From: Selenomonas sp. oral taxon 892 str. F0426
GTDB lineage: Bacteria > Bacillota > Negativicutes > Selenomonadales > Selenomonadaceae
Assembly: GCF_000468035.1 (NCBI RefSeq)
Contig: NZ_KI260546.1
Span: 1 to 64,000 of the forward strand
DNA: 64,000 bases
Reading direction: 5' to 3'
A model generated the notes under the pieces. The model was given only the letters and a program-made list of their open reading frames with translations, had not been told where the DNA came from and did no database searches. Below, piece after piece: positions 14,229-39,382 of the stretch. Every line of letters starts with the position of its first letter. The stretch's first letter is position 1. Position numbers and translations under genes: made by a program.

Positions 14229-14297
14229 GATTGACAATCGCCGTTTGACCTGCGAGTGATAGGGATGGGGATTTTGATCCTTTGATTGAACATGTAT

Positions 14298-16344: not shown

Positions 16345-16404
16345 AGGAATCGCTAATAAAATAAAGTCCACTGGATTGGTACAGATTTTTCGTCCTGTCG
16401 AGGA

Positions 16405-16446
16405 GACAAACCGGACGCATAGCAAGAGCTATGTGGAGGATTTGTC
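16405..16446 (+). repeat. Intercistronic hairpin between receptor 1 and the first binding lipoprotein
   Basis: Arms 16405-16423 and 16428-16446 match at 14 of 19 positions, with six perfect pairs at the base (GACAAA/TTTGTC) and six at the tip (CATAGC/GCTATG), loop AAGA. No T-run follows. It could set relative expression by processing or partial termination. Confidence 0.5.
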
Positions 16447-16480
16447 GACAAAGAGAGGGCGGAAAAGATGTGCCAAGGCA

Positions 16481-18498: not shown

Positions 18499-18512
18499 CA
18501 TCGGGGGCTTCT

Positions 18513-19514: not shown

Positions 19515-19552
19515 GTGTTGTTGTGTGTTTGTGTTTTAGGAGGAAAATTGGA

Positions 19553-22587: not shown

Positions 22588-24498
22588 TTGGATACTCCGC
22601 GTTATCCGCTGACTGCCGTTGTCGGGCAGGAGCACGCACGGCGCGCACTTTCGATTGCGCTCATCAACCCGCGTGCGGGAGGCCTCCTGATCTCCGGCAC
22701 GCGGGGCACGGCAAAATCCGTTCTCGTTCGTGCGGCAGCACCGTTTACACCAGCTGGAAAAATTACGGAACTGCCGCTTGGAGCGTCGGAGGATATGATC
22801 TTCGGCACAATCGACGTGGAGACGGCCCTGCAAAAAGGCGAGCGGCGCCTGCGGCACGGCCTGCTGCATCGTGCACGCAATACCTTTCTCTATATGGACG
22901 AGGTCAACCTCCTGCGTGAGGATATTCTGTCTACGGTTTTGAAATGCGCAGGGGATGGTTCTTTTCGCCTCGAGCGGGACGGGCTGTCGTTCACCGAGGA
23001 GGTTTCCTACACGCCTGTCGGCACGATGGATCCCGCAGAGGGCACGCTTCGCCCTGCTCTGCTGGATTCTTTCGGCATGTTTGTGACGATGGAGGAGGAG
23101 GGGGACGCGGCGCAGCGAAGTGAGATCGCCGCACGTGTACTCGCATACGAGCGCGATCCGGCATCCTTTCATGCCTCCTATGCTGCGCAGGAGGAGGCAT
23201 TCGGAGCGATGATCAGCCGTGCCCGCGCATTGCTGCCGCGCGTAGAGGCCCCGTCTGCCATTCTCCATTTTGCGGCCGCCTGTGCTGCGCGTGCATGTTG
23301 TGTCGGCAACCATGCGGAGATTTATCTCATCGAGGCGGCGTGTGCGATTGCAGCGCTCGCAGGAAGATCGTTCGTCATGCCTGCGGATGTGGAGGAAGCC
23401 GCGGAGTTCGTGCTCGTGCATCGGATGAGCCGCCCGCAGGAGGAACAGCAGCCGCCGCCCGATGCTGGAAATACACCGGAGCAGGGCGGGAATGACTTGC
23501 CGAATGAGCCGCAGGAAGCACCTTCTCCGCAGGATGACGGAGGGGCGGAGAGTCCTCATGAAGTCTCGTCGGAGAACGAATCCCAGAATGCTCCTCAGGA
23601 CCGGGAGGACGATCCGTCCTCGCCGGAGGAGACGCATGCAGATGGAGACGATCGTGTCGCAGCACCGCTTGAGAACATCATGGCGCGACTCTCGCTCCTC
23701 TCCATGACGATGCGTGCGCAGGGAGGAAAGAGCGGAAAGCGCGACATTGTTCAGACGCATACGGCGGACGGACGCTGTCTGCGCACGGAACTGCCGCGTT
23801 CTGGTGCCCGGCTCGATCTCGCGCTCTCCGCGACGCTGCGTGCAGCAGCCCCGTATCAACGCACGCGTCAGGGAACGCAGACGGTTGTGATCCGTCCTGA
23901 GGATGTGCGTGTTTGGGTGCGTGCGAAACGCGCGGCAGCAAATATTCTTTTTCTTGTCGATGCGAGCGGTTCGATGGGAGCACGCGAGCGCATGAGGATG
24001 GTGAAGGGCGCGATCCTTGCCCTCCTGCAGGATGCATATCAAAAGCGCGACCGCGTGGGGCTGATTGCCTTTCGGCGGGATCGTGCGGAGACACTCCTCC
24101 CCATGACACGCAGCGTGGAACTGGCGGAAAAGCAGCTGCGCGATCTGCCGACGGGCGGACGGACGCCGCTTGCCGAAGGGCTCGCCTGTGCTCTGCAAAC
24201 GCTGCGAGAACTGGAGCGCAAAGGCTGTGAGAAAACCGTGCTTGTCCTGATCACGGATGGTCGGACGAATGCGGCGCGGGATGGAGATGACGGCGTACAG
24301 CGTGCCCTGTGCGCAGCGGAAGAGATCGCAGGAACGCAGGCACTCACGCTTGTTCTTGATACGGAGCGCGGTGTGCCGCGGGTTGGGGCTGCACCGGAGA
24401 TTGCCCGCCGCATGGAGGCGCGTTATTATACGTTGGAACAGCTCTCAGCTGAGGGGGTGCTCGAGATTGTCCGCGCATCCCGCAGCATGCAGATGTGA
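22588..24498 (+). CDS. ChlD/BchD-type chelatase subunit (AAA+ plus vWA)
   Basis: A 636-aa protein starting at TTG behind TCGGAGGAAAA. Residues 1-290 are an AAA+ domain (SGTRGTAKSVLV, FLYMDEVNLLRED) homologous to the previous gene. Residues about 290-360 are a Pro/Glu/Asp-rich linker. Residues about 440-630 are a von Willebrand A domain with the metal-ion site DASGSMG near residue 458 and a later TDGRTNAA. This is the D-subunit layout of class I chelatases. Its Walker A is kept, unlike many D subunits, so it may hydrolyse ATP itself. Confidence 0.9.
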   Translation: MDTPRYPLTAVVGQEHARRALSIALINPRAGGLLISGTRGTAKSVLVRAAAPFTPAGKITELPLGASEDMIFGTIDVETALQKGERRLRHGLLHRARNTFLYMDEVNLLREDILSTVLKCAGDGSFRLERDGLSFTEEVSYTPVGTMDPAEGTLRPALLDSFGMFVTMEEEGDAAQRSEIAARVLAYERDPASFHASYAAQEEAFGAMISRARALLPRVEAPSAILHFAAACAARACCVGNHAEIYLIEAACAIAALAGRSFVMPADVEEAAEFVLVHRMSRPQEEQQPPPDAGNTPEQGGNDLPNEPQEAPSPQDDGGAESPHEVSSENESQNAPQDREDDPSSPEETHADGDDRVAAPLENIMARLSLLSMTMRAQGGKSGKRDIVQTHTADGRCLRTELPRSGARLDLALSATLRAAAPYQRTRQGTQTVVIRPEDVRVWVRAKRAAANILFLVDASGSMGARERMRMVKGAILALLQDAYQKRDRVGLIAFRRDRAETLLPMTRSVELAEKQLRDLPTGGRTPLAEGLACALQTLRELERKGCEKTVLVLITDGRTNAARDGDDGVQRALCAAEEIAGTQALTLVLDTERGVPRVGAAPEIARRMEARYYTLEQLSAEGVLEIVRASRSMQM

Positions 24499-24522
24499 TT
24501 GCACAGGAGGTCATCAGACATC

Positions 24523-25623
24523 GTGGAACTGGCCAAGCTGACAACGGGGGACGTTGCTTACCGATATGACAAGAGCATTGCACTGTTCTTTTCCGGTGCA
24601 CGCAAGGTGCTCAGCACATCGCTTTACAACGGGGGATACCATGAGGACTTTACAGCGGTGTTCAACCGCGATATGACGCAGGGGGCAGGCATGCCCTGTG
24701 AGGAGTTCGCTTCAACCTATGTGGAGAGCATGCGCATCGTTGCGCAGAGGATCGGTCTGGATCCGGATCGTACGACGGGGATGGGGACAGCCGCACAGAT
24801 GGAGAACGTCTCCATACAGTCGCGCAGCTACAAGGAACTTACAGTGACTGCCATTGTAACGGGAGGTGTGGAGACCAACGGAGGACGTGTCGGCGATCCG
24901 GCATCGTATTACAAGACTGTTCCGAAGAAATGCGGAACGATCAACATCATCCTTGTGATCGACGCAGATCTGCCGCCGGGGATTCTCGCACGTGCACTCG
25001 TTACCTGCACCGAGGCAAAGACAGCGGCGCTGCAGGAGCTCATGGCAGACAGCCGGTACTCGTGTGGGCTTGCAACGGGCTCCGGCACAGATCAGACGAT
25101 CATTGTCGCCAATGCGGAGTCCACCCTGTACTTCGAGGGGGCAGGCAAGCATTCCAAACTCGGCGAGCTGATCGGACAGGCGGTGATCGCGGCGGTCAAG
25201 GAGACGCTCGCAAAGCAGTCGGGGCTCACTCCCGCACATCAGCATAATCTTCTGCGTCGTCTGCGTCGTTTCGGCATTACCGGAGACTCTCTCTGGCACG
25301 ACTATGAGGCACGAGGCGTGACGAGGCGTCTCATCAAACCTCAGTTTCTCCAGATGCTCCATGCAGTGGGGGAACATTCGGGGGGATTTGCCCTTGGTGT
25401 GGGCTATATCCACCTCTATGACGAATTCCTGTGGGGGTTGCTGACAGAGGAGGAAACATGCGCAGCAGGCGGGCGTCTCCTCACGGAGATGGCGCACTGT
25501 GCTGGTGTGCCTCTACCGGCAGTGCCTCAGGGGGGAGAGTCCTATATGGACGCGATGGCAACATTCCTTGTAGATTCTGTTTGTGTGAGGGCAGAGGAGC
25601 TGCCGGAAGGAGAGACGTTATGA
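24523..25623 (+). CDS. cbiZ: CbiZ-like adenosylcobinamide amidohydrolase
   Basis: CbiZ enzymes cut the amide bond of corrinoid side chains so an imported corrinoid can be rebuilt with another lower ligand. The 366-aa protein has the family's VLSTSLYNGGY start, VTGGVETNGGRVGDP, the TCTEAKTAALQEL helix, the ATGSGTDQTIIV motif and GKHSKLGELIG. About 120 further C-terminal residues are not assigned. The GTG at 24523 follows AGGAGG by 12 bases. Its stop overlaps the CobN-like start (ATGA), so the two are coupled. The match is by motif memory; the activity on this island's substrate is inferred. Confidence 0.78.
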   Translation: MELAKLTTGDVAYRYDKSIALFFSGARKVLSTSLYNGGYHEDFTAVFNRDMTQGAGMPCEEFASTYVESMRIVAQRIGLDPDRTTGMGTAAQMENVSIQSRSYKELTVTAIVTGGVETNGGRVGDPASYYKTVPKKCGTINIILVIDADLPPGILARALVTCTEAKTAALQELMADSRYSCGLATGSGTDQTIIVANAESTLYFEGAGKHSKLGELIGQAVIAAVKETLAKQSGLTPAHQHNLLRRLRRFGITGDSLWHDYEARGVTRRLIKPQFLQMLHAVGEHSGGFALGVGYIHLYDEFLWGLLTEEETCAAGGRLLTEMAHCAGVPLPAVPQGGESYMDAMATFLVDSVCVRAEELPEGETL

Positions 25624-28600
25624 AGATTGCGCTCTACACCAACATTCTGCGCGTTACTGTGCTCGCACGCCGATGCACCGCCTATATGGAGGAACCCGAG
25701 GTGTGCGTCTGCCCTGTCAGCGGCATGGACGATTGGAATGCGATGCGCGCAGAGGCAGATCTCCACATCTTCCTCTGGATGGGCACAGGACTCGACAATG
25801 ACTTCTTGAAAAAGGCGTCACGCAATTTGCAGAGGAATCGGACGCCGCACCTGATCGTCGTGGACAATGCCGATCATGATAAGGTGACATATGGGTTCTC
25901 GGAGGAGCAGATTCAGACGGCATGGGCATATTTTCGCTATGACGGCGAGGAGAATATGCGCAATCTTTTTTACTGGCTCGGCAGCGCGTTTGGCGGGCTT
26001 GCCTGCACAGCAGAGCCGCCGCGTCCGCTCGCGTGGAACGGCGTCTACCATCCGGACTGGGCGGGGGATCCCGAGGACATCGCGGGATATCTCGCCTCGC
26101 ATTATGAGGAAGGGCGTCCGACGGTCGGCATGATCTTCTACCGTTCGGAATGGATTACGGGGGACTTCACCTACCATACTGCGCTCGTTCGTGCAATCGA
26201 GGCGGAGGGGATGAACGCGGTCGCTGTGTTTTCCAATTCCTACCGTGACGAACGCGTAGAGTCGCCGACGTTGATGGATGCGATCCGCAAGTACTTCTGC
26301 AGGGATGGAGAGTCCTTTGTCGACGTGATCATCAGCACGATGAAGTTCTCTATCAAGGCAGGCGGCACGCGCATTGAGGATCTCTATGAACTCGGCGTGC
26401 CCATTCTCGAGGCGTATACGGTACTTGCAGAAAAGGAAGAGTGGGAGCGCTCTCCGGCGGGACTCGACCCTATGGAGGTCTCAATGAGCGTTGCCATGCC
26501 GGAGTTTGACGGCGTGATCCATGCTGTGCCGGTCGCAGCGAAGGTGCGCGACGAGTATGGTGAGATCAGCTATGCGGCACTCGATGAGCGTATGGAGCGG
26601 ATCGCGCGCAAGGCACGCAAGTGGGCGGCGCTGCGGCATAAGCCGAACGCGGAGAAGAAGATTGCCATTGTTTTCCACAACTATCCGCCGACGAATGCGA
26701 ACATCGGAAGCGCTGCGGGGCTTGATTCGCCGGAGAGCGTGCTTCGTCTGCTCGCGGCAATGCGTACGGCGGGCTATCTTATGGATGAGATTCCGGAGAG
26801 CAGCAAGGCGTTTATGAAGCTGCTGACGGATCACGCGACGAATGACCGCCGCTTTATGAGCGCGGCACAGGCAAAGTCTGCCGATGGACAGCTGACGGCA
26901 GAGCAGTATCGCGCATTTTTCACAGAGCTGCCGGAGCAGGTGCGATCGCAGCTGACAAAGGACTGGGGCGATGCACCCGGCGATGTGTTCAACTATGACG
27001 GGACCCTGCTCATCCCGGGCACGCTGAACGGGAATCTGTTCATCACGGTGCAGCCACCGCGCGGGTTTGGTGAGGATCCGGGGAAACTCCTGCATTCACC
27101 GGATGCTGCACCGACGCATCACTACATCGGGTACTATCACTGGCTGCGTGACATCTGGCAGGCGGATGCTGTGATCCACGTCGGAACGCACGGATCGCTC
27201 GAGTGGCTGCCGGGAAAGAGCACCGGACTGTCCAATACCTGCTATCCGGATGTGTCGCTGGGCGATCTGCCCGACATCTACCCCTACTGGATCACGATTG
27301 TTGGGGAGGGGATTCAGGCGAAGCGCCGCGGTGCGGCATGCCTCATCAGCCATCTCTCGCCGCCGATGCAGCTGGCAGGAGGATTCGAGGAACTCGAAGA
27401 GCTCGAGCAGGCTCTCGATGAGTACGTCCACTTCCGTGCGACGCAGCCGGACAATATTGAGGCTGCGCAGGATATCGTCCGTGAAAAGGCGGCCGCCTGC
27501 CATTTTGAGGATGAGATTGATGAGGGCGATGACTTTGACGATTATACGGCGCGCCTCCACAACTATGTGACAGACATCAAGAACATGCAGATTCGCACGG
27601 GCTTGCACATTCTCGGGCGTGCCCCCGAGGGTGAGGGACTGATCGACTTCCTGTGCGCACTTGTGCGCATGGAACATGGGGGGGAGAAATCCCTCGTTCG
27701 CCTGCTTGCCGCGCAGGCAGGCTATGACTATGAGGAACTCCTCACACACAGCGAGCGTATGACGGCAGATGGGATGACCTATGGCAGGAAACTGGACGCG
27801 GTCGAGGCAGAGATGCGCGCGCTCATCTCCTTCCTTGCAGCACATGACTATGCACCGGATGCCATCGAGCAGGCAATGGCACTTCCCAGGATTGCCGCTG
27901 CCTCTGCGGAGGTGCGTGCATCATTTTCCCATGCATTGCACGAGATTGTGGAGGATATGGTGCCGCGTCTGCGCCGTACAGAGGGGGAGATTACGGAGAC
28001 GCTGCGTGCGCTCACAGGCAGATACATCGAGCCAAGCCCTGCGGGAGCACCGACGACAAACGGCGTGGATGTGCTCCCAACGGGGCGGAATTTCTACGGT
28101 CTCGACCCGCGCTGTATGCCGACGCCTGCTGCATGGGAGTACGGAAAACAGCTCGGTGATGCCCTCATCGAGCAGTATATCAGCGATGAGGGGCGCTATC
28201 CGGAGGCAGTTGGGATTGTCTTCTGGGCGGGCTCGAATATGCGCAGCCACGGGCAGTGCATCGCAGAGCTCTTCTATCTCATGGGGGTGCGTCCCATATG
28301 GCTGCGTCCCTCGCAGCGTGTCTGCGGTCTCGAGGTCATCCCCATCGCGGAGCTGAAGCGGCCCCGTATCGATGTGACGGCACGCATCAGCGGACTGTTT
28401 CGCGATGCCGTTCCGAATGCGGTGCATTGGGTCGATGAGGCAGTGCGCATGGTGCGCGATCTCGATGAGAGCGACGAGGAGAACTATGTGCGCAAGCATG
28501 TTCTCGCAGATACCGCTTGGCTTGAGGAGCAGGGGGAGAAGCGAGAGAGTGCATGGGAACGCGCCTCCGTACGCATCTTTGGCGACCCACCGGGTGCGTA

Positions 28601-29303
28601 TGGTGCGGGCATCGGTGACCTGCTCGAATCGAAGGCATGGGAGACGCTTGACGATCTGGCGGCGGTCTATACGCGGTTCTCGGGAACCGCATATGGCGGT
28701 GACGGATACGCGCGCGGCTATGACCCCGAGGTGTTTCAGCGCCGCATGGCGGGGCTTGATGTCACAGTCAAGAACGAGGACACACGCGAGACGCATATGT
28801 TCAGCTCGGATGACTACAACGCCTATCACGGCGGCATGATTGCGACTGTACGGGCACTGACGGGCAAGGCTCCGCGTTCCTACACGGGCGACTCGAGTGA
28901 CCGGCAGCGCATTGTCCTGCGCAGCGTCGCAGAGGAGGCAGCACGCCTCTTCCGCGGAGAGGCGATGAATCCAAAGTTCATCGAGGGCATGAAGGAGCAT
29001 GGCTACAAAGGGGCGTCCGATCTCGCGAACTATCTTGCGCACAGCTATCAATGGGATGCGACAAGCGGCGTGATGAAGGATTGGATGTACGAGGGCTACG
29101 CGCGGAAATATGTGCTGGATGCGGGCATGCAGGAGTGGATGCAGGATGTCAACCCGTGGGCACTTCACCGCATGGCGGAGACTCTGCTCGAGGCACAGCA
29201 GCGCGGCCTGTGGAACGCATCCGAGGAAATCCTTGCAGAGGTGCGCAGTCTCTATCTTTCCATTGAGGGTGATCTTGAGGAGCGTTCGGAGGGGACCGTA
29301 TGA
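25620..29303 (+). CDS. CobN/BchH-type chelatase large subunit
   Basis: A 1227-aa protein of the CobN/magnesium-chelatase H family, the subunit that binds the tetrapyrrole and metal. The ATG at 25620 has GAAGGAGAG upstream. Family landmarks include HVGTHGSLEWLPGKSTGLS near residue 520, a TGLHILGRAPEGEG segment, GVDVLPTGRNFYGLDPR and WAGSNMRSHG. With the ChlI- and ChlD-like genes just upstream it makes a complete three-subunit set. Classic CobN serves oxygen-dependent B12 synthesis, of which nothing else is present. Similar proteins (HmuS) in anaerobic haem-uptake loci are thought to remove metal, so the direction of the reaction is open. Confidence 0.9.
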   Translation: MKIALYTNILRVTVLARRCTAYMEEPEVCVCPVSGMDDWNAMRAEADLHIFLWMGTGLDNDFLKKASRNLQRNRTPHLIVVDNADHDKVTYGFSEEQIQTAWAYFRYDGEENMRNLFYWLGSAFGGLACTAEPPRPLAWNGVYHPDWAGDPEDIAGYLASHYEEGRPTVGMIFYRSEWITGDFTYHTALVRAIEAEGMNAVAVFSNSYRDERVESPTLMDAIRKYFCRDGESFVDVIISTMKFSIKAGGTRIEDLYELGVPILEAYTVLAEKEEWERSPAGLDPMEVSMSVAMPEFDGVIHAVPVAAKVRDEYGEISYAALDERMERIARKARKWAALRHKPNAEKKIAIVFHNYPPTNANIGSAAGLDSPESVLRLLAAMRTAGYLMDEIPESSKAFMKLLTDHATNDRRFMSAAQAKSADGQLTAEQYRAFFTELPEQVRSQLTKDWGDAPGDVFNYDGTLLIPGTLNGNLFITVQPPRGFGEDPGKLLHSPDAAPTHHYIGYYHWLRDIWQADAVIHVGTHGSLEWLPGKSTGLSNTCYPDVSLGDLPDIYPYWITIVGEGIQAKRRGAACLISHLSPPMQLAGGFEELEELEQALDEYVHFRATQPDNIEAAQDIVREKAAACHFEDEIDEGDDFDDYTARLHNYVTDIKNMQIRTGLHILGRAPEGEGLIDFLCALVRMEHGGEKSLVRLLAAQAGYDYEELLTHSERMTADGMTYGRKLDAVEAEMRALISFLAAHDYAPDAIEQAMALPRIAAASAEVRASFSHALHEIVEDMVPRLRRTEGEITETLRALTGRYIEPSPAGAPTTNGVDVLPTGRNFYGLDPRCMPTPAAWEYGKQLGDALIEQYISDEGRYPEAVGIVFWAGSNMRSHGQCIAELFYLMGVRPIWLRPSQRVCGLEVIPIAELKRPRIDVTARISGLFRDAVPNAVHWVDEAVRMVRDLDESDEENYVRKHVLADTAWLEEQGEKRESAWERASVRIFGDPPGAYGAGIGDLLESKAWETLDDLAAVYTRFSGTAYGGDGYARGYDPEVFQRRMAGLDVTVKNEDTRETHMFSSDDYNAYHGGMIATVRALTGKAPRSYTGDSSDRQRIVLRSVAEEAARLFRGEAMNPKFIEGMKEHGYKGASDLANYLAHSYQWDATSGVMKDWMYEGYARKYVLDAGMQEWMQDVNPWALHRMAETLLEAQQRGLWNASEEILAEVRSLYLSIEGDLEERSEGTV

Positions 29304-30286
29304 GCTGCAAAAAACAATTCATTGCCTTTTTCGTAGCGGCTCTCACCGTATGTTTTCTCACGGGCTGCATCGACCTTTCCAAAGAGCCGACAGGCGGCTA
29401 TCAGGTCACGGATGTGGAGGGGACGGTCGTTACATTCAAGCACAAACCTCAGCGCATTCTGACTGTCAGTGCCGGTACGGATGAGCTGATGCTCGGACTT
29501 GTGGAGCCGGAGCGCATGGCGGCGATCAATGAATCTCTCGCCGATCGGGAACATACGAATATCCCGTGGGTGTGTGACCGGATTCCAACGGTCATCCCCC
29601 GCAGCCCGTCGGTCGAGCAAATTGCGGCGCTGCATCCGGATCTCGTCGTTGTGACGCCGTGGATGCCGCGTGAGAACATCGATGCCATCCGCGAGCTGAA
29701 TGTGCCCGTTCTTGTCTGCAAATCTGCTGCGACCATGGAGGATATTCATGATAATATCCGACTCTATGCGGCGGCTGTCGGTGAAGTGGAGCGTGGGGAG
29801 AAACTCATCGGCATGATGGAGGAAAAACTCGCGGAGATTCGCAGCAAGATAGCAGCGGTTCCAGAGGAGAAGAAGCATAAGAGCATTGCTCTCATCTCCA
29901 TCATGGTGAACTACGGCGGTGCGGGATGCACCTTTGACGAACTTTGCCGCTATACGGATTCGATCAACGCCAAGGCGGCGGCAGGCAATCGCATGGGGCA
30001 GGAGATGACGAAGGAGCAGCTCGTTGCAGCGAACCCAGACTACCTCTTTTTCCCAAGCTATGAAGATGGTGCGACCAACGAGGAGAACTACGGACGTCAG
30101 TATCTGGAGGACCCCTCGCTTGCGCAGATGACTGCCGTGCGGGAGCGACAAATCGGTCATCCGTGGGCGCGCTACGTTTACAATCTCTCGCAGGACATTG
30201 TGTATGGTATTCAGGAGACGGCGTGGATTCTCTATGGTGACGAGTTCAAACAGTCGCGGCATGAGTTTCTTACGGCCGTGGAATAA
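29300..30286 (+). CDS. BtuF/FepB-type ABC substrate-binding lipoprotein (3)
   Basis: A 328-aa binding lipoprotein with signal and lipobox LTGC near residue 23. Lobe 1 shows PQRILTVSAGTDELMLGLVEPERMAAIN and LHPDLVVVTPW; lobe 2 shows GGAGCTFDELCRYTDSIN and NPDYLFFP. It is translationally coupled (ATGA) to the CobN-like gene and precedes the NifH-like gene by 9 bases, so a transport component is built into the enzyme operon. It is more distant from proteins 2 and 4 than they are from each other. Confidence 0.87.
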   Translation: MSCKKQFIAFFVAALTVCFLTGCIDLSKEPTGGYQVTDVEGTVVTFKHKPQRILTVSAGTDELMLGLVEPERMAAINESLADREHTNIPWVCDRIPTVIPRSPSVEQIAALHPDLVVVTPWMPRENIDAIRELNVPVLVCKSAATMEDIHDNIRLYAAAVGEVERGEKLIGMMEEKLAEIRSKIAAVPEEKKHKSIALISIMVNYGGAGCTFDELCRYTDSINAKAAAGNRMGQEMTKEQLVAANPDYLFFPSYEDGATNEENYGRQYLEDPSLAQMTAVRERQIGHPWARYVYNLSQDIVYGIQETAWILYGDEFKQSRHEFLTAVE

Positions 30287-30295
30287 GGTGATCCT

Positions 30296-31108
30296 ATGAA
30301 AAAAATTGCCTTCTACGGAAAGGGCGGCATCGGAAAGTCCACGACAGCCGCAAATGTATCTGCCGCGTTCTCTCGCATGGGACGGCGCGTCTGCCAGATC
30401 GGCTGTGATCCGAAGAATGACTCGACGCGCCTTCTGCTCGGCCGTATTGCGCCCTCCACGATCCTCGATCTGGAGCGGGAGAAAAAGGGAGCTGCGCTGA
30501 CGCTCGCAGACCTCGTGCATGAAGGGTTCAGCGGCATTCGCTGTATTGAGGCCGGCGGGCCGGATCCCGGCGTTGGCTGTGCAGGACGCGGAATTATCGT
30601 TGCGCTCGAGCGCCTCAAGGCACTGCATGCGTTTGATGACCTCGATGTCGTTCTCTACGATGTCCTCGGCGATGTGGTCTGCGGCGGCTTTGCCGTGCCC
30701 ATCCGTGAGGGCTATGCCTCGGAGATATACATTGTTTCCTCGGGCGAGCTCATGTCACTCTATGCGGCAAACAATATCGCGAAGGGGGTGCGCCGTTTCG
30801 CCGAGCGCGGTGCGGTGAAGCTCGGCGGCATCATCGGCAACGGCAGGGATGTCCTGCGCGAGCGAGAGCTGCTCGAGGCGTTTGCTGCACGTATCGGCAC
30901 ACAGCTCATCACCTACATCCCGCGGTCGCGCGCTGTGCACGAGGCGGAGATTCATCGGCAGACGCTCATCGCCTATGCGCCTAATTCGGAGCAGGCGCAG
31001 CACTATACGGCACTCGCGCAGGCGATCGATACGAATGAAATGCTGACCGTTCCGACACCGATGGAGTTCGAGGAGCTCGAGGATCTGGTGGAGCGCTATG
31101 GGGATTGA
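30296..31108 (+). CDS. NifH/BchL/CfbC-like reductase iron protein
   Basis: A 270-aa dimeric ATPase that would pass electrons to the NifDK-like pair after it. The P-loop is Y7GKGGIGKST with the NifH signature lysine, the CDPKNDST loop follows, and the two cluster cysteines are present: Cys95 in GCAGRG and Cys129 in DVVCGGF. The Arg after Cys95 (the ADP-ribosylation site in NifH) is kept. It is shorter than nitrogenase NifH (about 290) at the C-terminus. No nifB, nifE or nifN is present in the window, so a role in reducing a tetrapyrrole ring, as for BchL and CfbC, is more likely than nitrogen fixation. Confidence 0.9.
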
Positions 31109-32402
31109 GGTCAAGCGCGTCGGCGTCCGTCGGACGAACTGCAGCTGCAGCATGCCGGGCGTCTGGCGTGCGCTGTCCTTTGTGCGCGGCGCACTTGTTG
31201 TCTTTCACAGCCCGCGTCCGTGTGCGCATATTGCGCACGGCATGGATGTGAGCAGCTTTCACCGGCTGACGGCAGCGGGGACCTCCGTACATCTCTCTCC
31301 TGTGCCGCTCCTGACAAGTGGCCTTGGAGAGAACGAGGCGATTTTCGGCGGCGAGGACCGACTGCGGGAGTGCATTCGTTTTGGCGCAGAGAAGTATCAC
31401 CCGCAGGCCGTATTCATCGCAAACTCCTGCGTCAGCGGCGTGATCGGTGATGATACGAAGGCGATCGCGGAGGAGATGGAGGAGGAGCTGGGGATTCCTG
31501 TCATGGCGGTGTCGGCGCATGGTTTCCTCGATGGAGAGTACTATGCGGGCTACCTCGATGCTGCACGTGCGCTCGTAGACCGCTTCATGCATCCCGCAGA
31601 ACGGAAGCCGGGAACCGTTGCCCTCCTCGGTGACTGCGGGGGCATGCACGGAGAATATGTGAAGGAGCTGCGGCGGCTGCTCGCCCTGCTCGATCTCAAG
31701 GTGACGGCGCAGTTCCCGTCGTATCTGGCGCTTGATGAGATGCAGGCGGTGCCGGAGGCGGAGCTCATCATTCTCCTCGGACGTCGGATGGACGATGAGA
31801 AGCAGGCACAGCTTGCAGCACTCGCGGAGCATATGCATGAGCGCTTTGACACGCCGTATCTCGCCGATGTTTATGCCGTCGGCGCGGAGGAGACAAAGAC
31901 CTGGCTGCGCCGTGTCGGCGCACTCTGTCACCGAGAGGAGGCGGCAGAGCATGCCATCGCATCGGAGGAGGCGTCCTTTTCCGCAGTTGTCGAGAAGGCG
32001 CGTGCTGATCTCGCGGGGCGAAGATGCGGGCTTGCGATTGGCCGCGACCTTACATGGTTTCAGCCGGAAATCATCCTGCGCCTGCTGAACAAGGCCGGCG
32101 TTGCGCTGTCCGGAATCGTGCTGTTGGACTGTTTTATGCCTGCGCGGCGTGAAGTGATGGAGGAGGCACTGCGGTGTCTGACCGATGTCCCTATCTATTA
32201 CGAGGGGGATGCAGCAGCGGATGAGATGCTGCATGCGGCAGACTTCGTTCTCACGACCCATGAGCTCGTTGATGCGAAGCTGCGCCAGCTTTTCCTCGCA
32301 TTGCTGCCGTCGGTCGGATGGTCGATGGAACGTCGGCTGCTGGACGATATGCGGCAGATACTGCACCGGCATGAGAGCAGAGGAGGGTTGATCTATGGCT
32401 GA
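31098..32402 (+). CDS. NifD/BchN-like component 1 alpha-type subunit
   Basis: A 434-aa member of the oxidoreductase/nitrogenase component 1 family. Cys15/Cys17, Cys42 ([10 protein letters not shown]) and Cys111 ([11 protein letters not shown]) sit where the alpha subunit ligates the P-cluster, and the [12 protein letters not shown] segment is the family's VFGG motif. The length fits BchN- or CfbD-type proteins, not NifD (about 480-500). I cannot place the FeMo-cofactor Cys and His. It overlaps the NifH-like gene by 11 bases and the next by 8, so the three are one translational unit. Confidence 0.87.
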
Positions 32403-33672
32403 GCAGGAGAAATCCTTCGACGATGTTTGTATGTGCACGGATACCTGTGCACTTGCAGGTGCATCTGCCTTTTTTGCGGGGCTGCGGGATGCTGTCATTG
32501 TCGTCAACGGACCTCTCTGGTGCTATTTCTTTGCGATGCGGCATATTGAGCACAGCCAAAGCACGATCTCACACCGTATGATCTGCACGCAGCTGGATAA
32601 TGACGCCATTGTATTCGGCGCGGAGGAATATCTGCACGAGGCTCTTGCCCCGTATGTGGAGCAGCCGCCTCCGCTGCTCGCGATCATCAGCAGCTGTGCA
32701 GCGGGCCTCATCGGCGACGACATTGAGGCGATTGCGCGCGGGGCAGGGCTCTCCTGCCCGATCGCCGTGCTGGACAGCAGCGGTCTCGCAGGGAGTTTTG
32801 CCGATGGCTGGGATAAGGCTGCATGCGCCGTGCTTTCAGCATTTCTGCCTGAACGGCACGCGGGACAGGCGAATGCGGTCAATCTCATCGGCGTGACGAG
32901 TGCCTACTACAACGGGGAGAACGATGCGCACGAACTGATGCGGCTCCTTGCGCTGGCGGGATACCGTGTCAATGCTGCTCTGGGCTGCGATATGTCTGCG
33001 GCGGATCTGAGCGGTCTGACGCAGGCAGCGCTGAATATTGTTGTGCATGACGAACTCGGGGGCGGTGTTGCACGCCTGCTTGCGGAGACCTGCGGCATGC
33101 CCTGCATTGCACCTCTGCCTCCCTACGGCCGCGCGGGAACGCGGAAGTGGCTCGCAGAGATCGGACGTGTGCTGCCCGCTCCCCGTGCCGATGCTGCGGA
33201 AGAGGAGATCACGCGCGTTACGCGCGAGGACTTCCTGCGCATCAACGAGTGCAAAAGCCTCTGGGGAGAACTCCGCTATGAGACGGCACTCATTCGTGCG
33301 CCCCGCTCCACGGCTTGGGGGATCGCGCAGGCGCTGCGTACGGAGTGGGCAGATGTCTGTCATCTCGCCGTTGCGGCGGACGCTGAGGGCGTGCCGACAG
33401 CAACTCCGATTGCGGATGAGCTCCTAAGCGAGACAGATGCACTCCGGATACAGGAGCTGCTCTCCACGATGGAAAACGGACTTCTGCTTGCGAGCAGCAA
33501 TGAGTCGGCGCATATCAATCCGAAGCGAGCTCAGTATTTTGGCGTCGCCTATCCTATGCAGGATGCACTTCATCTGACTGATTGTCCCTTTATGGGATTG
33601 CGCGGCGCCCGTCATATAGAGGAGCAGTTATGGAACGGCAATATCCAACGACGAAAAATTTTAATCTTGTAG
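32395..33672 (+). CDS. NifK/BchB-like component 1 beta-type subunit
   Basis: A 425-aa second component 1 subunit. Cys12, Cys14 and Cys18 near the N-terminus, Cys43 (GPLWCYF), Cys64 and Cys101 (SSCAAGLIGDD) offer the ligands of a bridging Fe-S cluster, and DAIVFGAEEYL is the family's VFG motif. It would form a heterotetramer with the preceding subunit. BchB-type C-terminal extensions are absent. The gene ends the enzyme operon; an extended -10 element follows within 40 bases. Confidence 0.86.
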   Translation: MAEQEKSFDDVCMCTDTCALAGASAFFAGLRDAVIVVNGPLWCYFFAMRHIEHSQSTISHRMICTQLDNDAIVFGAEEYLHEALAPYVEQPPPLLAIISSCAAGLIGDDIEAIARGAGLSCPIAVLDSSGLAGSFADGWDKAACAVLSAFLPERHAGQANAVNLIGVTSAYYNGENDAHELMRLLALAGYRVNAALGCDMSAADLSGLTQAALNIVVHDELGGGVARLLAETCGMPCIAPLPPYGRAGTRKWLAEIGRVLPAPRADAAEEEITRVTREDFLRINECKSLWGELRYETALIRAPRSTAWGIAQALRTEWADVCHLAVAADAEGVPTATPIADELLSETDALRIQELLSTMENGLLLASSNESAHINPKRAQYFGVAYPMQDALHLTDCPFMGLRGARHIEEQLWNGNIQRRKILIL

Positions 33673-33734: not shown

Positions 33735-34718
33735 GTGCATCAGAAAAATATCATGATCTTTTTCCTCTGCGTGCTGAGCATTCTGCTTACCGCATGTGGT
33801 GTACCAAGTGGCACAGCGGAGAAGACGGCAGCCTATACGGTGACGGATATTGAGGGGACAGCGATCGATTTTCCCGCACCGCCGAAGCGTATCCTCACAC
33901 TCTCAATGAGTACGGATGAGACAATGCTCGGCCTCGTGGAGCCGGAGCGCATGGCTGCGGTCAATGGTCTGCTCGATGATCCCGTCAGTTCCAACATCAC
34001 AGGGCTTGTCAAGGAGATCCCGCGGCGCATCGGCAATCCAACGATTGAGGAGATCATGGCTCTGCAGCCGGATCTTGTCGTCGTGCCGGATTGGGGAGAT
34101 CTCACTATGGTGCCCTCTCTGCGCGAGGCGGGACTCAAGGTCATCGTCTGCAAGGGAGCGCGAAACCTCACGGAGATTCGTGAGACAGTTGCACTTCTCG
34201 CTGAGGCAGCGGGGGAACCGGAGCGTGGGCAGAAACTGCTCTCCATGATGGATGAAAAGCTGACAGAGATCCGGGAAAAGGTGAATAAGATCCCGCAGAT
34301 AGAGCGCAAGCGTGTTGTCCTCATCTCGCTCATGGGGGGGTATGGCGGGCTTGGCAGCAGCTTCGATGAAGCATGTCGCTATGCGGGCGTCATCAACGGA
34401 CGTGCCGAGCTTGGCATTCGTGATTTTCAAGTGATGACGAAGGAGCAGCTCGTTCAGATCGATCCTGATATACTCTTCCTGCCGACGTATAACGACCAAG
34501 GTAATTATGATGTTGCCAAATTTCGCAGAGACTATCTGGAGGATCCGTCCCTGCAGACCATGAAGGCAATTCGAAACAAGGCGTTTGCAGAGCCGTTCGA
34601 GGGCTATATCTATAACTGCTCACAGGATTTTGTCTTTGGTGTGCAGGAGATTGCGTACCGCGTATATGGGGATGCGTTCAAGCAGGGAGAGTCCGAGCAT
34701 CTTTCAGCCGTTCCTTGA
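33735..34718 (+). CDS. BtuF/FepB-type ABC substrate-binding lipoprotein (4)
   Basis: A 327-aa binding lipoprotein starting at GTG after GGAAAGGAGAAG; signal with lipobox LTAC near residue 21. It shares with protein 2 the segments SFDEACRYAGVING, IDPDILFLP and NCSQDFVFGVQEIAYRVYGD. It is the only one of the four placed directly before the ATPase and permease genes, so it is the likeliest primary partner of that transporter. Confidence 0.88.
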   Translation: MHQKNIMIFFLCVLSILLTACGVPSGTAEKTAAYTVTDIEGTAIDFPAPPKRILTLSMSTDETMLGLVEPERMAAVNGLLDDPVSSNITGLVKEIPRRIGNPTIEEIMALQPDLVVVPDWGDLTMVPSLREAGLKVIVCKGARNLTEIRETVALLAEAAGEPERGQKLLSMMDEKLTEIREKVNKIPQIERKRVVLISLMGGYGGLGSSFDEACRYAGVINGRAELGIRDFQVMTKEQLVQIDPDILFLPTYNDQGNYDVAKFRRDYLEDPSLQTMKAIRNKAFAEPFEGYIYNCSQDFVFGVQEIAYRVYGDAFKQGESEHLSAVP

Positions 34719-34736: not shown

Positions 34737-35585
34737 TTGAGTGAAATGATTCGTGCTGAGACCATCTATGCTGGATACAATGGGCAGGTCATCTTGGAGA
34801 ATGTGTCATTTACCGTGGGAACGGGGGAGATCGTCGGGCTGATCGGGCCGAATGGCGCAGGAAAGAGCACGCTTCTCAAAACACTGAGAGGCATTCTTCC
34901 CCTGCTTTCAGGATCTGCCGCGCTGATGGGTGTGGACATTGAGACGCTTCCTGCCAAGGATTTTGCGCGTCGTGTGGCGTATCTGCAGCAGCACGTGGAG
35001 ATGACCTTTGCTTATACGGCACGCGATGTCGTTCTCTCTGGGCGCTACCCCTATCTCTCGTGGTGGAGTCAGGAAAAGGCGGAGGATCTTGCAATCGCCG
35101 AAGCGTGCATGGCGTATACGGGCGTGTCGGAGCTCGCAGATAAGCCCCTTCACGCCATGTCGGGCGGACAGCGTCAGCGTGTGCTGCTCGCGAAGGTACT
35201 TGCTCAGCAGACGCCCGTCCTCTTTCTCGATGAGCCTGCGACGGGGTTGGATCTCATCTATCAGGAGGAGATCTTTCGCTTTTGCCGTGAACTCGCTGCG
35301 GCGGGCAAGACGGTTCTGCTCGTGGCGCATGAGCTGAGTCTTGCCGCACGCTTCTGCTCGCGGTTGTTGTTAATCGCACACGGGTCGCTCCTCGCTGACG
35401 GAGCTCCGCAGGCTGTCTTGACGGATGAACTCCTGACGAAAGCATACGGAGCGCCTGTGCGTGTTGTCGAGAACCCGCTGACCCGTCATGCGGAGATCTA
35501 TACGGAGGCGTCTGATGGGAGAGAGAACGCGCATCTTCTCAGCGTTATTCTGGAGAGATCAGAGAGAGGGGAGACAGTTGTATGA
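34737..35585 (+). CDS. BtuD/FecE-type ABC transporter ATPase
   Basis: A 282-aa ATPase for import of cobalamin-, haem- or siderophore-type compounds. Walker A is GPNGAGKST, the signature is MSGGQRQRV and Walker B is PVLFLDEPATGLD. The TTG at 34737 follows GTGGGGGG; an ATG at 34746 is the alternative. Its stop overlaps the permease start (ATGA). The last 25 residues extend past the usual fold. Confidence 0.93.
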   Translation: MSEMIRAETIYAGYNGQVILENVSFTVGTGEIVGLIGPNGAGKSTLLKTLRGILPLLSGSAALMGVDIETLPAKDFARRVAYLQQHVEMTFAYTARDVVLSGRYPYLSWWSQEKAEDLAIAEACMAYTGVSELADKPLHAMSGGQRQRVLLAKVLAQQTPVLFLDEPATGLDLIYQEEIFRFCRELAAAGKTVLLVAHELSLAARFCSRLLLIAHGSLLADGAPQAVLTDELLTKAYGAPVRVVENPLTRHAEIYTEASDGRENAHLLSVILERSERGETVV

Positions 35586-36613
35586 GTTTTGGACGATCAC
35601 AGATCTTTCTGTGTGCTCTTGTCGGTGCACTCCTCTTTGCGATTCTCCTGTCTATGAGTTCTGGGCAGTATGACATTCCGATGGAGGCTGTTGCTGCCTC
35701 CTTTGCGCACGCGGCGGGACTTCCGATCCTCACGGATGTCGTCGTGACACCGGAGCAGGAGGCAGTGCTGTGGCACATCCGTCTCCCGCGTACTCTCGTT
35801 GGCATGATGGTCGGAGCAGGCCTCGGCGTTTCGGGCGCTGTTCTTCAGGGCATCTTTAGCAATCCGCTTGCCGACCCCGGCATCATTGGCGTATCGAGCG
35901 GTGCCTCTGTCGGTGCTGTGCTTGCCATTGGCATCGGCGTGACGGCGGGGAGCGTGCTCACACTGCCTGCCTTTGCCTTTGTCGGCTCCATGCTGGCAGT
36001 GGGTCTCACCGTATCGTTATCGATGCGGCATGGGCGGATTCCAGTCATGACGCTCCTGCTCTCGGGGGTTGTCGTTGGGATGTTTCTCGCCGCGTGTACG
36101 GCGGCGATCCTCACCGTGATGAACGAGCAGAAGATGCAGCAATATCTCTTTTGGACGATCGGGGGACTTGACTATCGTCGTTGGGATCACGTCCTGCTCG
36201 GCATCGGGCCGATCGCTGTCGGTGCATCCATCATGGTGCTCCTTGCACGTCATCTGAATCTGCTCGCCTTTGGTGAGGTGGAGGCCCGTGCAGCGGGGAT
36301 GCCCGTGACGGCATTCCGTCTTCTTTTCCTCGTGCTTGCTTCACTCACGACGGCGGCAGGTGTCTGTATCAGCGGCAACATCGGTTTTGTGGGGCTGGTC
36401 GTGCCGCATATGGTACGACTCCTCATTGGCCCCGATCATCGACGTCTGCTGCCAGCGAGTCTCCTTGCGGGTGCGGTATTCCTTGTCCTATGTGATTCTG
36501 TGGGGCGTATCCTGCTCCACGGCATGGAGATTCGTGTCGGCATCATGACAGCATTCATCGGTACACCGTATTTCCTGTATCTCCTGCGCAGACACATGAA
36601 GACAGGAGGATGA
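35582..36613 (+). CDS. BtuC/FecCD-type ABC transporter permease
   Basis: A 343-aa permease with about ten membrane helices. The RLPRTLVGMMVGAGLGVSGAVLQG and NPLADPGIIGVSSGAS segments are diagnostic of the FecCD family, and VCISGNIGFVGLVVPHMVR is the coupling region for the ATPase. It is the only such permease in the island, set against four binding lipoproteins. Confidence 0.94.
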   Translation: MSFGRSQIFLCALVGALLFAILLSMSSGQYDIPMEAVAASFAHAAGLPILTDVVVTPEQEAVLWHIRLPRTLVGMMVGAGLGVSGAVLQGIFSNPLADPGIIGVSSGASVGAVLAIGIGVTAGSVLTLPAFAFVGSMLAVGLTVSLSMRHGRIPVMTLLLSGVVVGMFLAACTAAILTVMNEQKMQQYLFWTIGGLDYRRWDHVLLGIGPIAVGASIMVLLARHLNLLAFGEVEARAAGMPVTAFRLLFLVLASLTTAAGVCISGNIGFVGLVVPHMVRLLIGPDHRRLLPASLLAGAVFLVLCDSVGRILLHGMEIRVGIMTAFIGTPYFLYLLRRHMKTGG

Positions 36614-36614
36614 T

Positions 36615-37340
36615 ATGGAGAGTGAAATGATTGAGAACTACGGAGAACGTAAGGCTTTTGGGCTTTCTCTCCTGGTGCATTTCATCCTCTTTCTGATCGC
36701 ATCAGCGTTGGGCCTCTTCTCGATCGCGGAGCAGAGCGGGCAGAGGCCACCAATTGATGTTGTGCTTTACGATTCGGGCGGAGAAGCAGGCGGTGCAGCG
36801 GGAGATGCCGCACCTGCGCCTGCTCCTGTGGTCGCTATAGATGACATCGTCGTGGAGGATAAGACACTGCCGCAGCCTGAGGAAAAGCCGCAGCAGCCGC
36901 AGCGTAAGGTGCAGCATGCTGCACGCGCAGCTCCTGCAGGAGCAGAAACAGGAAGCGGACAAGCGGCGAGCGGGGGCGGAGGCAATGCATCTGTCGGAAC
37001 CGGAATCGGAACAGGAACAGGCACGGGAGACGGCAGCGGCGGAACGGGAAGCGGAACGCTGCCCGCTCCGCCAAAGGAGCGTATTGCGGCAAGTCTGCGC
37101 TCCGAGTCTGCGCCCGAGTATCCGCAGGAACTCATCGATGACGATGTCGAGGGGGTTGTGACGATCAAGATCCTTGTCGCAGCAGACGGCTCTGTCGAGT
37201 CCGTCAGTGTCGAGTCCTCATCGGGGTATCGCGCGATGGACAGAGCTGCGGTCGCTGCAGGCTGGCGATTTCAGTTTAATCCAGGAGACAATGGCCGGCG
37301 GGGCGTTTGGACAAAGACGTTCCGCTTTCAGTTGAATTGA
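36615..37340 (+). CDS. tonB: TonB energy-transducing protein
   Basis: A 241-aa protein with one N-terminal membrane helix (residues about 14-38), a periplasmic spacer and a C-terminal TonB domain (residues about 155-241: SAPEYPQELIDDDVEGVV, then GYRAMDRAAVAAGWRFQF). It would carry proton-motive energy to the island's receptors. The spacer is short in Pro/Lys and instead has a GTGTGTGDGSGGTGSG-like glycine stretch. exbB and exbD are not in the window. The ATG follows AGGAGG by 4 bases, next to the permease stop. Confidence 0.9.
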   Translation: MESEMIENYGERKAFGLSLLVHFILFLIASALGLFSIAEQSGQRPPIDVVLYDSGGEAGGAAGDAAPAPAPVVAIDDIVVEDKTLPQPEEKPQQPQRKVQHAARAAPAGAETGSGQAASGGGGNASVGTGIGTGTGTGDGSGGTGSGTLPAPPKERIAASLRSESAPEYPQELIDDDVEGVVTIKILVAADGSVESVSVESSSGYRAMDRAAVAAGWRFQFNPGDNGRRGVWTKTFRFQLN

Positions 37341-37369
37341 TTTTATTTTTATGGAGGATGACAACGAAG

Positions 37370-39382
37370 ATGTGGCATAAGAAATTCCTTGCAGCGGCAG
37401 TTGCACTTTCGGCAATGACGGGTCAGGTTTATGCGTCGGAGACGTCGCATACGGGGACAGAGGTCGATGAACTGATGCCGACCTACTCTCTGGGTGAGGT
37501 CGTTGTGACGGCGACGCGCACGCAGAAGCGAGATGTGGATGTCCCTGCCGCGACGACTGTTATTACGGCGGAGGATATCAAGGACAGCGGCGCATCGACT
37601 GCGTCGGATGTTCTGTCGATGGCAAACGGGTTTGCATATAAGGCGTTCGGTCCCAACGGTGCGGCCATGGGAACAATGAGCAATGATCTCAACGTGCGCG
37701 GATTCAAAGGCGGGACACTTGTCCTCATGAATGGAAATCCAATCTCGTGGCGCGGTAAATACAATCTTGAGGCAATTCCTGCGAGCAGTATTGAACGCGT
37801 CGAGATTGTCAAGGGCAGTGGGGCGGTCCTCTACGGCAGTGATGCTGTTAGCGGTGTGGTCAATATTATCACAAAAAAGACAACGACGAATGAAGCTCGC
37901 GTGGGCTTTGGCAAGTACGGACAGCGTAAGTACGGCGTGACCATTGGAGATGAGCGGTTTGGCTTCTACTACGGTTATGACCAGTGGAAGACGCGCGAGG
38001 GTGCCAGCTATAGTGATGAGAATAAAACAAATCGCTTCCGTGGTGAAACGCGCACCGATATTCATGACATAGAGAAACGAAATGCAGGATTTACGTACAA
38101 GATCAATCCACGCCTCAATTTTCTATTGAACTACTATAAATCCGACGTAACGTATCAGCGCACCGTTACGGATGTGAGAAGGTCGTCGATCGGCGTGCGT
38201 GTAGGCGACCCGTTCAACAAGAGAAAATATGAGATCAAACGCTATACGAGTCAGCTCAACTACCGCGACAGGGATTGGAAGGGCAGCATTTACTTCAATA
38301 CGGGGACAACGGAGGCAATTGGGCCCGTCCATATTGTCACAAGAGACCCCGCTCCACGAACACCTATTACAGATGCTGATTACTGGTACAATACGCGCGA
38401 GAAGAATCGTACGTTCGGTATGGATTTGCAGAGGACATGGAGGCTCGACCGTGCGACAGCGACAGTCGGGTTTAATCTTGAACATGAAACATATCATACA
38501 CTGCCCGCGCACAATACTAAAAAAGGGAACAGCTATAACCGCAATAACTGGGGCCTGTTCGGCCAGTGGGAGCAGCGTTTCGACGGAAAGAATACGGGCA
38601 TCTTCGGCCTGCGCGAGACCTGGACAACTGGAGCGACGAAGAAACAGAATTACAGCAACCTCAGTGCGTCGGCGCAGTGGCTGCATAAGCTCGATCGCGA
38701 CAGCAGCCTCTATGTGAACATCAGTCAGTCGTTCGTCATGCCGACCTTCGCGCAGATGTATAAGGACAACAGCATGCAGCTTCCCTCGCCGGACCTGAAG
38801 CCGCAGAAGGGTATCAACTATGAAATCGGCTGGAAAAAGATGAGCGGCGGTCATTCGTGGAAAGCTGCGCTCTTCCATATGGATGTCAAGGACAACATCA
38901 CGGCAAACCTGAACCGATCGAGAACTTCTTATCAGTACACGAATGAGGATTTTCGCAATACAGGACTTGAAATCTCGGATGATATCAAGGGGAAAAATGG
39001 CTTCTCGTATCAGTGGGGGCTGACGTGGCAGAACCCGCAGACCAAGAGCAACAGTACGGCGAAAAAAGCGCTCGGCTGGGAAAGCACCTTTGGCAAGATA
39101 CAGCTCACAGGAGGGGTTACCTACAAAAAAGACAAGTGGGCATCTTCACTTTCCGCATCCTATCTCGCTGCCCGTACACAATCGCCCTCGAATGCACCTG
39201 CCTACCGATCGAAGCCGTATCTCCTCACTTCGTGGAGCACGAGCTATGCACCGGACGAAAACAGTGCGATCAGTCTCCGCATCGAAAACGTGCTGGATCG
39301 GCATGATGTGATTACGCACACAGGATCGGACTACTACGTCGCCCCCATCAACTATCTCCTCAGCTACAGCTATAGATTCTAA
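37370..39382 (+). CDS. TonB-dependent outer-membrane receptor (3)
   Basis: A 670-aa receptor. The ATG at 37370 gives the signal MWHKKFLAAAVALSAMTGQVYA, with GGAGG 12 bases upstream. VVVTATRTQKRDVD is the TonB-box region; the plug has RVEIVKGSGAVLYGSDAVSGVVNI; the barrel ends LLSYSYRF. It is unlike receptors 2 and 4 in its extracellular loops, which suggests another ligand. It follows the tonB gene directly. Confidence 0.91.
   Translation: MWHKKFLAAAVALSAMTGQVYASETSHTGTEVDELMPTYSLGEVVVTATRTQKRDVDVPAATTVITAEDIKDSGASTASDVLSMANGFAYKAFGPNGAAMGTMSNDLNVRGFKGGTLVLMNGNPISWRGKYNLEAIPASSIERVEIVKGSGAVLYGSDAVSGVVNIITKKTTTNEARVGFGKYGQRKYGVTIGDERFGFYYGYDQWKTREGASYSDENKTNRFRGETRTDIHDIEKRNAGFTYKINPRLNFLLNYYKSDVTYQRTVTDVRRSSIGVRVGDPFNKRKYEIKRYTSQLNYRDRDWKGSIYFNTGTTEAIGPVHIVTRDPAPRTPITDADYWYNTREKNRTFGMDLQRTWRLDRATATVGFNLEHETYHTLPAHNTKKGNSYNRNNWGLFGQWEQRFDGKNTGIFGLRETWTTGATKKQNYSNLSASAQWLHKLDRDSSLYVNISQSFVMPTFAQMYKDNSMQLPSPDLKPQKGINYEIGWKKMSGGHSWKAALFHMDVKDNITANLNRSRTSYQYTNEDFRNTGLEISDDIKGKNGFSYQWGLTWQNPQTKSNSTAKKALGWESTFGKIQLTGGVTYKKDKWASSLSASYLAARTQSPSNAPAYRSKPYLLTSWSTSYAPDENSAISLRIENVLDRHDVITHTGSDYYVAPINYLLSYSYRF

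Follow-up and report, generated by a model that had tools for sequence, protein, structure and literature searches.

A nitrogenase-like HDK operon in the vitamin B12 regulon of Selenomonas: a candidate corrinoid reductase

What might a nitrogenase-like enzyme do in a bacterium whose genome lacks NifB and NifEN? The question is raised by three adjoining genes of Selenomonas sp. oral taxon 892 str. F0426, which lie in the first 64,000 nucleotides of contig NZ_KI260546.1 (hereafter the window) and which we term HDK. All three are on the forward strand and encode a NifH-like iron protein and P-loop ATPase, H (positions 30296–31108, 270 residues; Fer4_NifH, E 1.5e-110), a NifD-like subunit, D (31098–32402, 434 residues; Oxidored_nitro, E 1.5e-57) and a NifK-like subunit, K (32395–33672, 425 residues; Oxidored_nitro, E 1.5e-53). 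A first-pass annotation, made by reading the DNA, described the trio as one translational unit, and the three open reading frames (ORFs) are indeed intact and overlapping, H with D by 11 nt and D with K by 8 nt. The likeness in subunit length to BchN that it drew is borne out by a BchN reference of 426 residues; the CfbD references used here have 368–381. On balance, HDK, which is no nitrogenase, appears to be an ATP-driven reductase in two components that belongs to the vitamin B12 regulon and takes as substrate either a corrinoid or a tetrapyrrole from the pathway to corrinoids.

Nitrogen fixation is considered first. The absence of nifB, nifE and nifN, previously noted from the window, holds for the whole genome on the basis of profile scores. 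There is no NifB, the best score genome-wide being 24.7 bits where the cut-off is 343.65. The proteins of the genome that score above the Oxidored_nitro cut-off are D and K of the window and a paralogous D/K pair on another contig and, since there are no others, NifE and NifN are absent as well. In addition D has lost both ligands of the iron-molybdenum cofactor (FeMo-co). Nitrogen fixation, earlier judged unlikely, is therefore rejected. The NCBIfam profiles agree in placing H just under the nifH cut-off (392.8 bits, cut-off 394.35) and D and K far under the cut-offs of all characterised component 1 families, nifD, nifK and nifE included.

The residues that would carry electrons are nevertheless those of a nitrogenase. 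H has the ATP-binding loop and the two cysteines of the shared [4Fe-4S] cluster; these residues, Cys95 and Cys129, align with the cluster cysteines of NifH in 27/27 H-type sequences compared. The three regularly placed cysteines reported for each component 1 subunit are real, conserved and match the P-cluster columns of NifD and NifK in an alignment that took in NifDKEN, Mar, Nfl, BchNB and CfbD, with BchY, BchZ and IsrDK outside it. Cys17, Cys42 and Cys111 of D occupy the columns of NifD Cys62, Cys88 and Cys154 in all 16 family members, and Cys18, Cys43 and Cys101 of K those of NifK Cys70, Cys95 and Cys153 in 17/17, 17/17 and 16/17 members. Larger alignments give 44/44 at each D position and 39/39, 39/39 and 37/39 for K. 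As judged from the sequences, such conservation is beyond chance. What D and K carry between them is the complete six-cysteine P-cluster set of nitrogenase and not the DPOR set, in which three cysteines come from the N subunit and an aspartate from B; BchB has Pro, Asp and Cys at the three positions where K has cysteine throughout.

The cofactor site has not been kept. In the column of the FeMo-co cysteine (NifD Cys275) D carries Gly in 15/16 sequences and Ser in 1/16. This residue is a cysteine in every NifD, NifE, MarD and Nfl D-subunit compared and is not a cysteine in BchN or CfbD. The column of the other ligand, His442, is a gap in 16/16 D sequences, the region being missing. The retention of the P-cluster cysteines, combined with the loss of the FeMo-co ligands and of NifB, leads us to predict that HDK has a nitrogenase-type, P-cluster-like electron relay and no FeMo-co-type cluster in the active-site cavity. 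His218 of K, which falls in the FeMo-co cysteine column, was considered as a cobalt ligand and dropped because the histidine is present in only 25/39 sequences.

The genome, of 2.31 Mb, holds one H-D-K operon of this kind. The extra D-K pair, on contig C32 (L005:1786-4390), has no adjacent H, and the third P-cluster cysteine of its K is replaced by Ser in 6/6 Selenomonas/Centipeda copies seen. This pair is possibly a diverged or regulatory copy that uses the same H.

The phylogeny of component 1 sets the family apart. In a tree of 68 rows, which included 16 D and 17 K sequences of the family, one BchNB and four CfbD, D and K each form a clade with support of 100/100, the stem being 1.5 changes per site long for D and 1.6 for K. 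D groups with Nif D/E and Mar/Nfl on the D side of the tree (support 95/85) but is outside both: the Nif clades (100/100) exclude D and K, and the Mar/Nfl D clade (100/100) excludes D. Both subunits are also distinct from the BchNB and CfbD sequences in the tree. The first-pass annotation had taken a position within true nitrogenase, or in a clade with a known non-tetrapyrrole substrate such as methylthio-alkane reductase, as evidence against its proposal of a tetrapyrrole substrate, and the proposal survives because D and K fall outside the Nif and Mar/Nfl clades. Approximately unbiased (AU) tests reject none of the sister groups tried, namely Mar/Nfl, NifDE and BchN for D and BchB for K (p 0.35–0.49). 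The p-AU value for D as sister to Mar/Nfl is 0.49; grouping with BchN or BchB is not recovered in the tree and returns p-AU of 0.35 and 0.45, values obtained with single, long-branched references. H is monophyletic (Shimodaira–Hasegawa-like approximate likelihood ratio test, SH-aLRT, 98) and sits beside NifH and its kin.

AlphaFold2 single-chain models are of good quality, with predicted local distance difference test (pLDDT) values of 89.7 for K and 86.9 for D. The fold nearest to the K model is BchB of DPOR, a subunit of a tetrapyrrole reductase. The closest folds to the D model are those of MarD and NifD, at moderate template modelling (TM) scores of 0.6–0.65, and in sequence also D is nearest to MarD (156 bits).

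Known nitrogenase-like enzymes either carry a metal cofactor in the cavity, as nitrogenase and Mar do, or have a simple [4Fe-4S] relay and act on a tetrapyrrole (DPOR, COR and CfbCD). HDK shares with Mo-nitrogenase NifHDK the two-component design, the two cluster cysteines of the iron protein and the six P-cluster cysteines of D and K, but differs in the missing FeMo-co Cys and His, the lack of NifB and NifEN in the genome, its own clade and a B12-regulated operon. MarHDK and the Nfl/Nfa/Isr enzymes (Group IV) provide the closest D in sequence and fold and keep the P-cluster cysteines. However MarD and Nfl D also keep the cysteine of the [8Fe-9S-C] cofactor where D of HDK has Gly, and HDK forms a separate clade with no NifB-type partner. 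DPOR (BchLNB), like HDK, has no FeMo-co ligand; BchB is the nearest fold to K, and a class I chelatase gene adjoins HDK as bchH does bchNB. The differences are Pro and Asp in BchB for two of the K cysteines, the absence of a chlorophyll pathway context around HDK, and long, separate branches. CfbCD of F430 biosynthesis again has no FeMo-co ligand and a tetrapyrrole context with a chelatase, but CfbD is a single, homomeric, archaeal subunit without the first cysteine, whereas HDK has two different subunits, and D and K score only 42.4 and 40.0 bits against the CfbD family methan_mark_13 (cut-off 268.4). By the sequence features tested, HDK is a reductase of nitrogenase-superfamily type that is none of Nif, Mar, Cfb or DPOR.

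What then is the substrate? The clearest indication comes from the head of the operon, where a cobalamin riboswitch aptamer (RF00174) occupies 14028–14244 on the forward strand (cmscan 91.8 bits, gathering threshold 31.5, E 1.9e-21, model positions 1–189 of 189). It is the sole Rfam match in the window. The first gene starts 166 nt after it and opens a co-directional run of 18 genes over about 25 kb, HDK among them, with no gap above 85 nt up to position 39382; from this spacing a single transcript is inferred. In order, the run encodes a TonB receptor, a binding protein, a radical SAM enzyme, a second binding protein, a B12-type TonB receptor, ChlI, ChlD, CbiZ, CobN, a third binding protein, H, D, K, a fourth binding protein, an ATPase, a BtuC-type permease, a TonB-like protein and a TonB receptor.

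Uptake of tetrapyrrole type, CbiZ and a CobN-ChlI-ChlD chelatase, under a riboswitch, form the basis of the link to B12. The CbiZ-type adenosylcobinamide amidohydrolase (24499–25623; PF01955, E 3.6e-60) is preceded by the ChlI-like AAA+ subunit (21534–22565; TIGR02442 putative cobaltochelatase 490 bits, BchI-ChlI 417 bits) and the ChlD-like AAA+/VWA subunit (22588–24498; TIGR02442 573 bits, BchD-ChlD 407 bits) and is followed by the CobN-type class I chelatase large subunit (25620–29303). The longest ORF for CobN begins at 25431, and the ATG at 25620 overlaps the CbiZ stop. At 952.6 bits this protein passes the CobN equivalog cut-off (TIGR02257, 822), so the cobaltochelatase set is complete, and among proteins of the PDB it is nearer to characterised CobN (784 bits) than to ChlH (548) or the heme de-chelatase HmuS (388). 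The difference from the known cobaltochelatase is that the organisms with the set are here strict anaerobes, which encode the anaerobic corrin pathway as well.

The association with CobN extends across the class Negativicutes, to which the family is nearly limited. K is present in 81 of 300 class genomes (E ≤ 1e-30); both K and CobN occur in 71 of these 300, K alone in 10, CobN alone in 34 and neither in 185 (odds ratio 38.6). By genus the corresponding numbers are 27, 3, 13 and 54 (p 3.6e-11). These are counts of genomes and genera, not corrected for deeper relatedness; CobN accompanies K in 71/81 K-positive genomes and 27/30 K-positive genera. CbiZ is a weaker partner (odds ratio 7.6). Its candidacy as an obligatory one was rejected because only 5/14 genomes of the window's genus have it (9/14 do not) while K and CobN occur in 14/14. 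CbiD, by which the anaerobic corrin pathway can be recognised, is found in 263/300 class genomes including that of the window organism, so the operon is no substitute for de novo corrin synthesis.

Riboswitches recur at related loci. In seven of these a cobalamin riboswitch lies 117–243 nt upstream of H: 117 nt in Phascolarctobacterium faecium (L054), 126 in Anaerospora (L055), 161 in Sporomusa ovata (L063), and 127, 189, 193 and 243 in L076, L094, L066 and L059, respectively. In Pelosinus (L081) one is placed 185 nt upstream of CbiK-D-K. Within about 10 kb of 63 loci the neighbours are CobN (34 loci), BtuC-type permease (32), ABC ATPase (28), ChlD (28), ChlI (25), radical SAM enzyme (22), CbiZ (21) and a TIM-barrel protein (19), and, less frequently, CbiK, CobA, a nitrilase-type amidase and a MerR regulator. 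These counts are lower bounds because many loci sit on short contigs. The L055 locus, of Anaerospora hongkongensis, holds five cobalamin riboswitches inside 21 kb around HDK. The Pelosinus propionicus genome (L081) also encodes K', another member of the family, which has a separate cobalamin riboswitch 154 nt ahead of it.

A B12-type molecule is the probable substrate of an enzyme that has no nitrogen-splitting cofactor and whose operon begins with a B12 sensor; no nitrogenase relative is known to reduce such a molecule. Such a substrate agrees with the earlier suggestion of a tetrapyrrole substrate, possibly a corrinoid, which now draws support from the cobalamin riboswitches, from neighbours of CobN-ChlID, CbiZ, CbiK, CobA and BtuCD type and from the position outside Nif and Mar/Nfl. 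In such an enzyme reduced H would dock on D2K2 and ATP hydrolysis would push single electrons into the P-cluster-like relay of D and K. From there the electrons would pass straight to a macrocycle held in the cavity that accommodates FeMo-co in nitrogenase, as with protochlorophyllide in DPOR. Since the chelatase is the most constant partner, we tentatively suggest a purpose, namely that reduction readies the corrinoid for the chelatase, low-valent cobalt or a reduced ring allowing CobN-ChlID to exchange or remove the metal of imported corrinoids under B12 limitation. In a larger scheme HDK, CobN-ChlI-ChlD and the radical SAM enzyme together would serve anaerobic metal exchange in imported corrinoids or the harvest of their cobalt, by a reduction that lets cobalt be removed or replaced and for which no enzyme is known, or else would make a reduced cobalt-tetrapyrrole comparable to F430; this too is speculative.

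Several observations weigh against assigning HDK to corrinoid reduction. The substrate and product are read from gene neighbourhood and regulation only. D is closest in sequence and fold to MarD, the substrate of which is not a tetrapyrrole. We know of no cobamide step that uses a nitrogenase-like enzyme; to our knowledge, moreover, the characterised tetrapyrrole reducers of the superfamily have a [4Fe-4S] cluster at the D/K interface and not six cysteines. The class already produces corrins anaerobically, as the CbiD count indicates. The 10 K-positive genomes without CobN imply that the chelatase is not obligatory. Only 13 of 29 related loci scanned have at least one cobalamin riboswitch, and none was found in the Succiniclasticum-type loci scanned, so the family may not share one function throughout. 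Those loci and the second Selenomonas D-K copy, which are without riboswitch and chelatase context, may have diverged in function.

Other explanations share part of this evidence. HDK might act on the ring with no metal exchange, reducing a C=C bond of a corrinoid or precursor in the manner of DPOR, COR and CfbCD. All characterised superfamily members that lack FeMo-co ligands reduce tetrapyrrole rings, BchB is the nearest fold to K, and in a Sulfitobacter photosynthesis cluster the order bchN-bchB-(CobN/BchH)-bchL likewise sets a class I chelatase beside the reductase. Yet there is no known need for a cobamide with a further reduced ring and the six P-cluster cysteines are not the DPOR set; we regard this explanation as doubtful, if worth retaining. 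The electrons could instead be destined for the metal, HDK reducing Co(II) or Co(III) corrinoids to the Co(I) state for adenosylation by CobA, much as F430 is activated to Ni(I) at the expense of ATP. The Pelosinus gene order riboswitch-CbiK-D-K-CbiZ-CobA is suggestive, and ATP-driven activation of MCR with nitrogenase-like clusters provides a precedent (PMC12176620). We consider it unlikely, as known adenosyltransferases obtain Co(I) from ordinary flavin or thiol reductants, CobA is near HDK in only 5/63 loci and the link to CobN would be left unexplained.

Two further proposals move away from corrinoids. HDK and the CobN-like protein might harvest heme iron anaerobically, as HmuS does in Bacteroidota; HmuS is related to CobN (PMC12583661), and a likeness to heme systems is also seen in the TonB receptors and the ABC ATPase. 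This is disfavoured by the control of the operon by a cobalamin riboswitch and by the greater similarity of the window chelatase to CobN than to HmuS. CbiZ, CbiK and CobA are corrinoid enzymes, and the presence of ChlI and ChlD is at odds with a de-chelatase that works without ATP (PMC12583661), making processing of heme or other iron-porphyrin very unlikely. Least probable is a reductase of sulfur compounds of MarHDK or IsrHDK type, found in a B12 operon for other reasons. The proximity of D to MarD is the point in its favour, but the cofactor cysteine of MarD and of all Nfl D-subunits compared is Gly in D, the genome has no NifB, D is outside the fully supported Mar/Nfl clade and no recurrent sulfur-metabolism genes lie near HDK.

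The remaining genes of the window run, also on the forward strand, mainly concern transport. TonB-dependent outer-membrane receptor 1 (14410–16344) scores 149 bits with the NCBIfam TonB-siderophore and 108 bits with the TonB-B12 family, both below cut-off, and receptor 2 (19523–21448) has the vitamin B12 receptor family as best match (TIGR01779 TonB-B12, 226 bits, below cut-off). Receptor 3 (37307–39382, true start probably later) is TonB-receptor-like by a reading of its sequence, the means by which the TonB-like energy transducer before it (36615–37340), with a Pro-rich linker and a C-terminal TonB-like segment, was also identified. Four periplasmic binding proteins are encoded at 16334–17458 (BtuF/siderophore-type; NCBIfam ABC substrate-binding families), 18453–19514 (the start overlaps the previous gene and the true start may be later), 29300–30286 (PF01497, E 7.3e-20) and 33735–34718 (PF01497, E 7.9e-16). 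An ABC transporter ATPase of heme/corrinoid type (34737–35585; NCBIfam heme ABC 239 bits, corrinoid ABC 236 bits, below cut-offs) and a BtuC-type permease (35582–36613; NCBIfam BtuC 271 bits, below cut-off) complete the uptake genes. The radical SAM enzyme (17470–18498; PF04055, E 5.1e-18) is of SPASM type, with a CxxxCxYC motif and a C-terminal cysteine set that is kept in 22 homologues, and recurs beside CobN; no NCBIfam family is above cut-off among its best 25 matches. Beyond the run lie, on the same strand, a xylose-isomerase-like TIM-barrel protein (39481–40449; PF01261, E 2.9e-10), the kind found near HDK in 19/63 related loci, and TonB-dependent receptor 4 (40532–42451, sequence reading only), a homologue of which is 211 nt downstream of a cobalamin riboswitch in the S. 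noxia locus L035.

A His-rich protein of about 107 residues with two repeats (HPKYELP..PHAK.RYESAMKHVEAAKAAGKSSEEIH; L060:5707-6027, L054:18110, L077:5141) occurs in nine Phascolarctobacterium-type loci near a MerR regulator and chelatase genes, and is perhaps a metal-binding partner.

K is 89–91% identical to its Selenomonas noxia and S. flueggei relatives, and the organism accordingly stands next to these two species. A named genome collection places the family in Selenomonas, Centipeda, Mitsuokella, Schwartzia, Megamonas, Phascolarctobacterium, Sporomusa, Pelosinus, Anaerospora, Dialister, Pectinatus and Succiniclasticum, the exceptions to Negativicutes being a Pelotomaculum contig and one metagenome-assembled genome (MAG) titled Acholeplasmataceae. 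No members were found in 398 genomes of other classes of the phylum and no relatives in the viral contigs searched; archaeal matches share about 25% identity and belong to the Nif or Nfl type. Two rumen MAG loci (Clostridia/Ruminococcus; L104 and L112) encode a Mar/Nfl-type D and K with a NifH-like H, and the Pelosinus propionicus genome (L081) gives 27 nitrogenase component-1-like matches, K' among them.

Automatic annotation labels genes of the HDK family nif. A metagenome study reported 'nifD' without nifK for Phascolarctobacterium faecium and Selenomonas (PMC8597730), which probably belongs to this family, and general surveys of Group IV touch on the family without describing it (PMC11423573, PMC12552129). 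In the open-licence literature, which leaves most subscription journals outside, we found no paper that ties a nitrogenase-like enzyme to a cobalamin riboswitch, to B12 regulation or to the HDK cluster. The family joins the six-cysteine P-cluster set to an empty cofactor site, a combination that bears on the evolution of the superfamily. HDK would be the first member of that superfamily linked to vitamin B12. It also suggests what the CobN-ChlID chelatases, a puzzle in strict anaerobes, might do there, in lineages (Selenomonas, Phascolarctobacterium, Dialister and Succiniclasticum) that live in the human mouth and gut and in the rumen.

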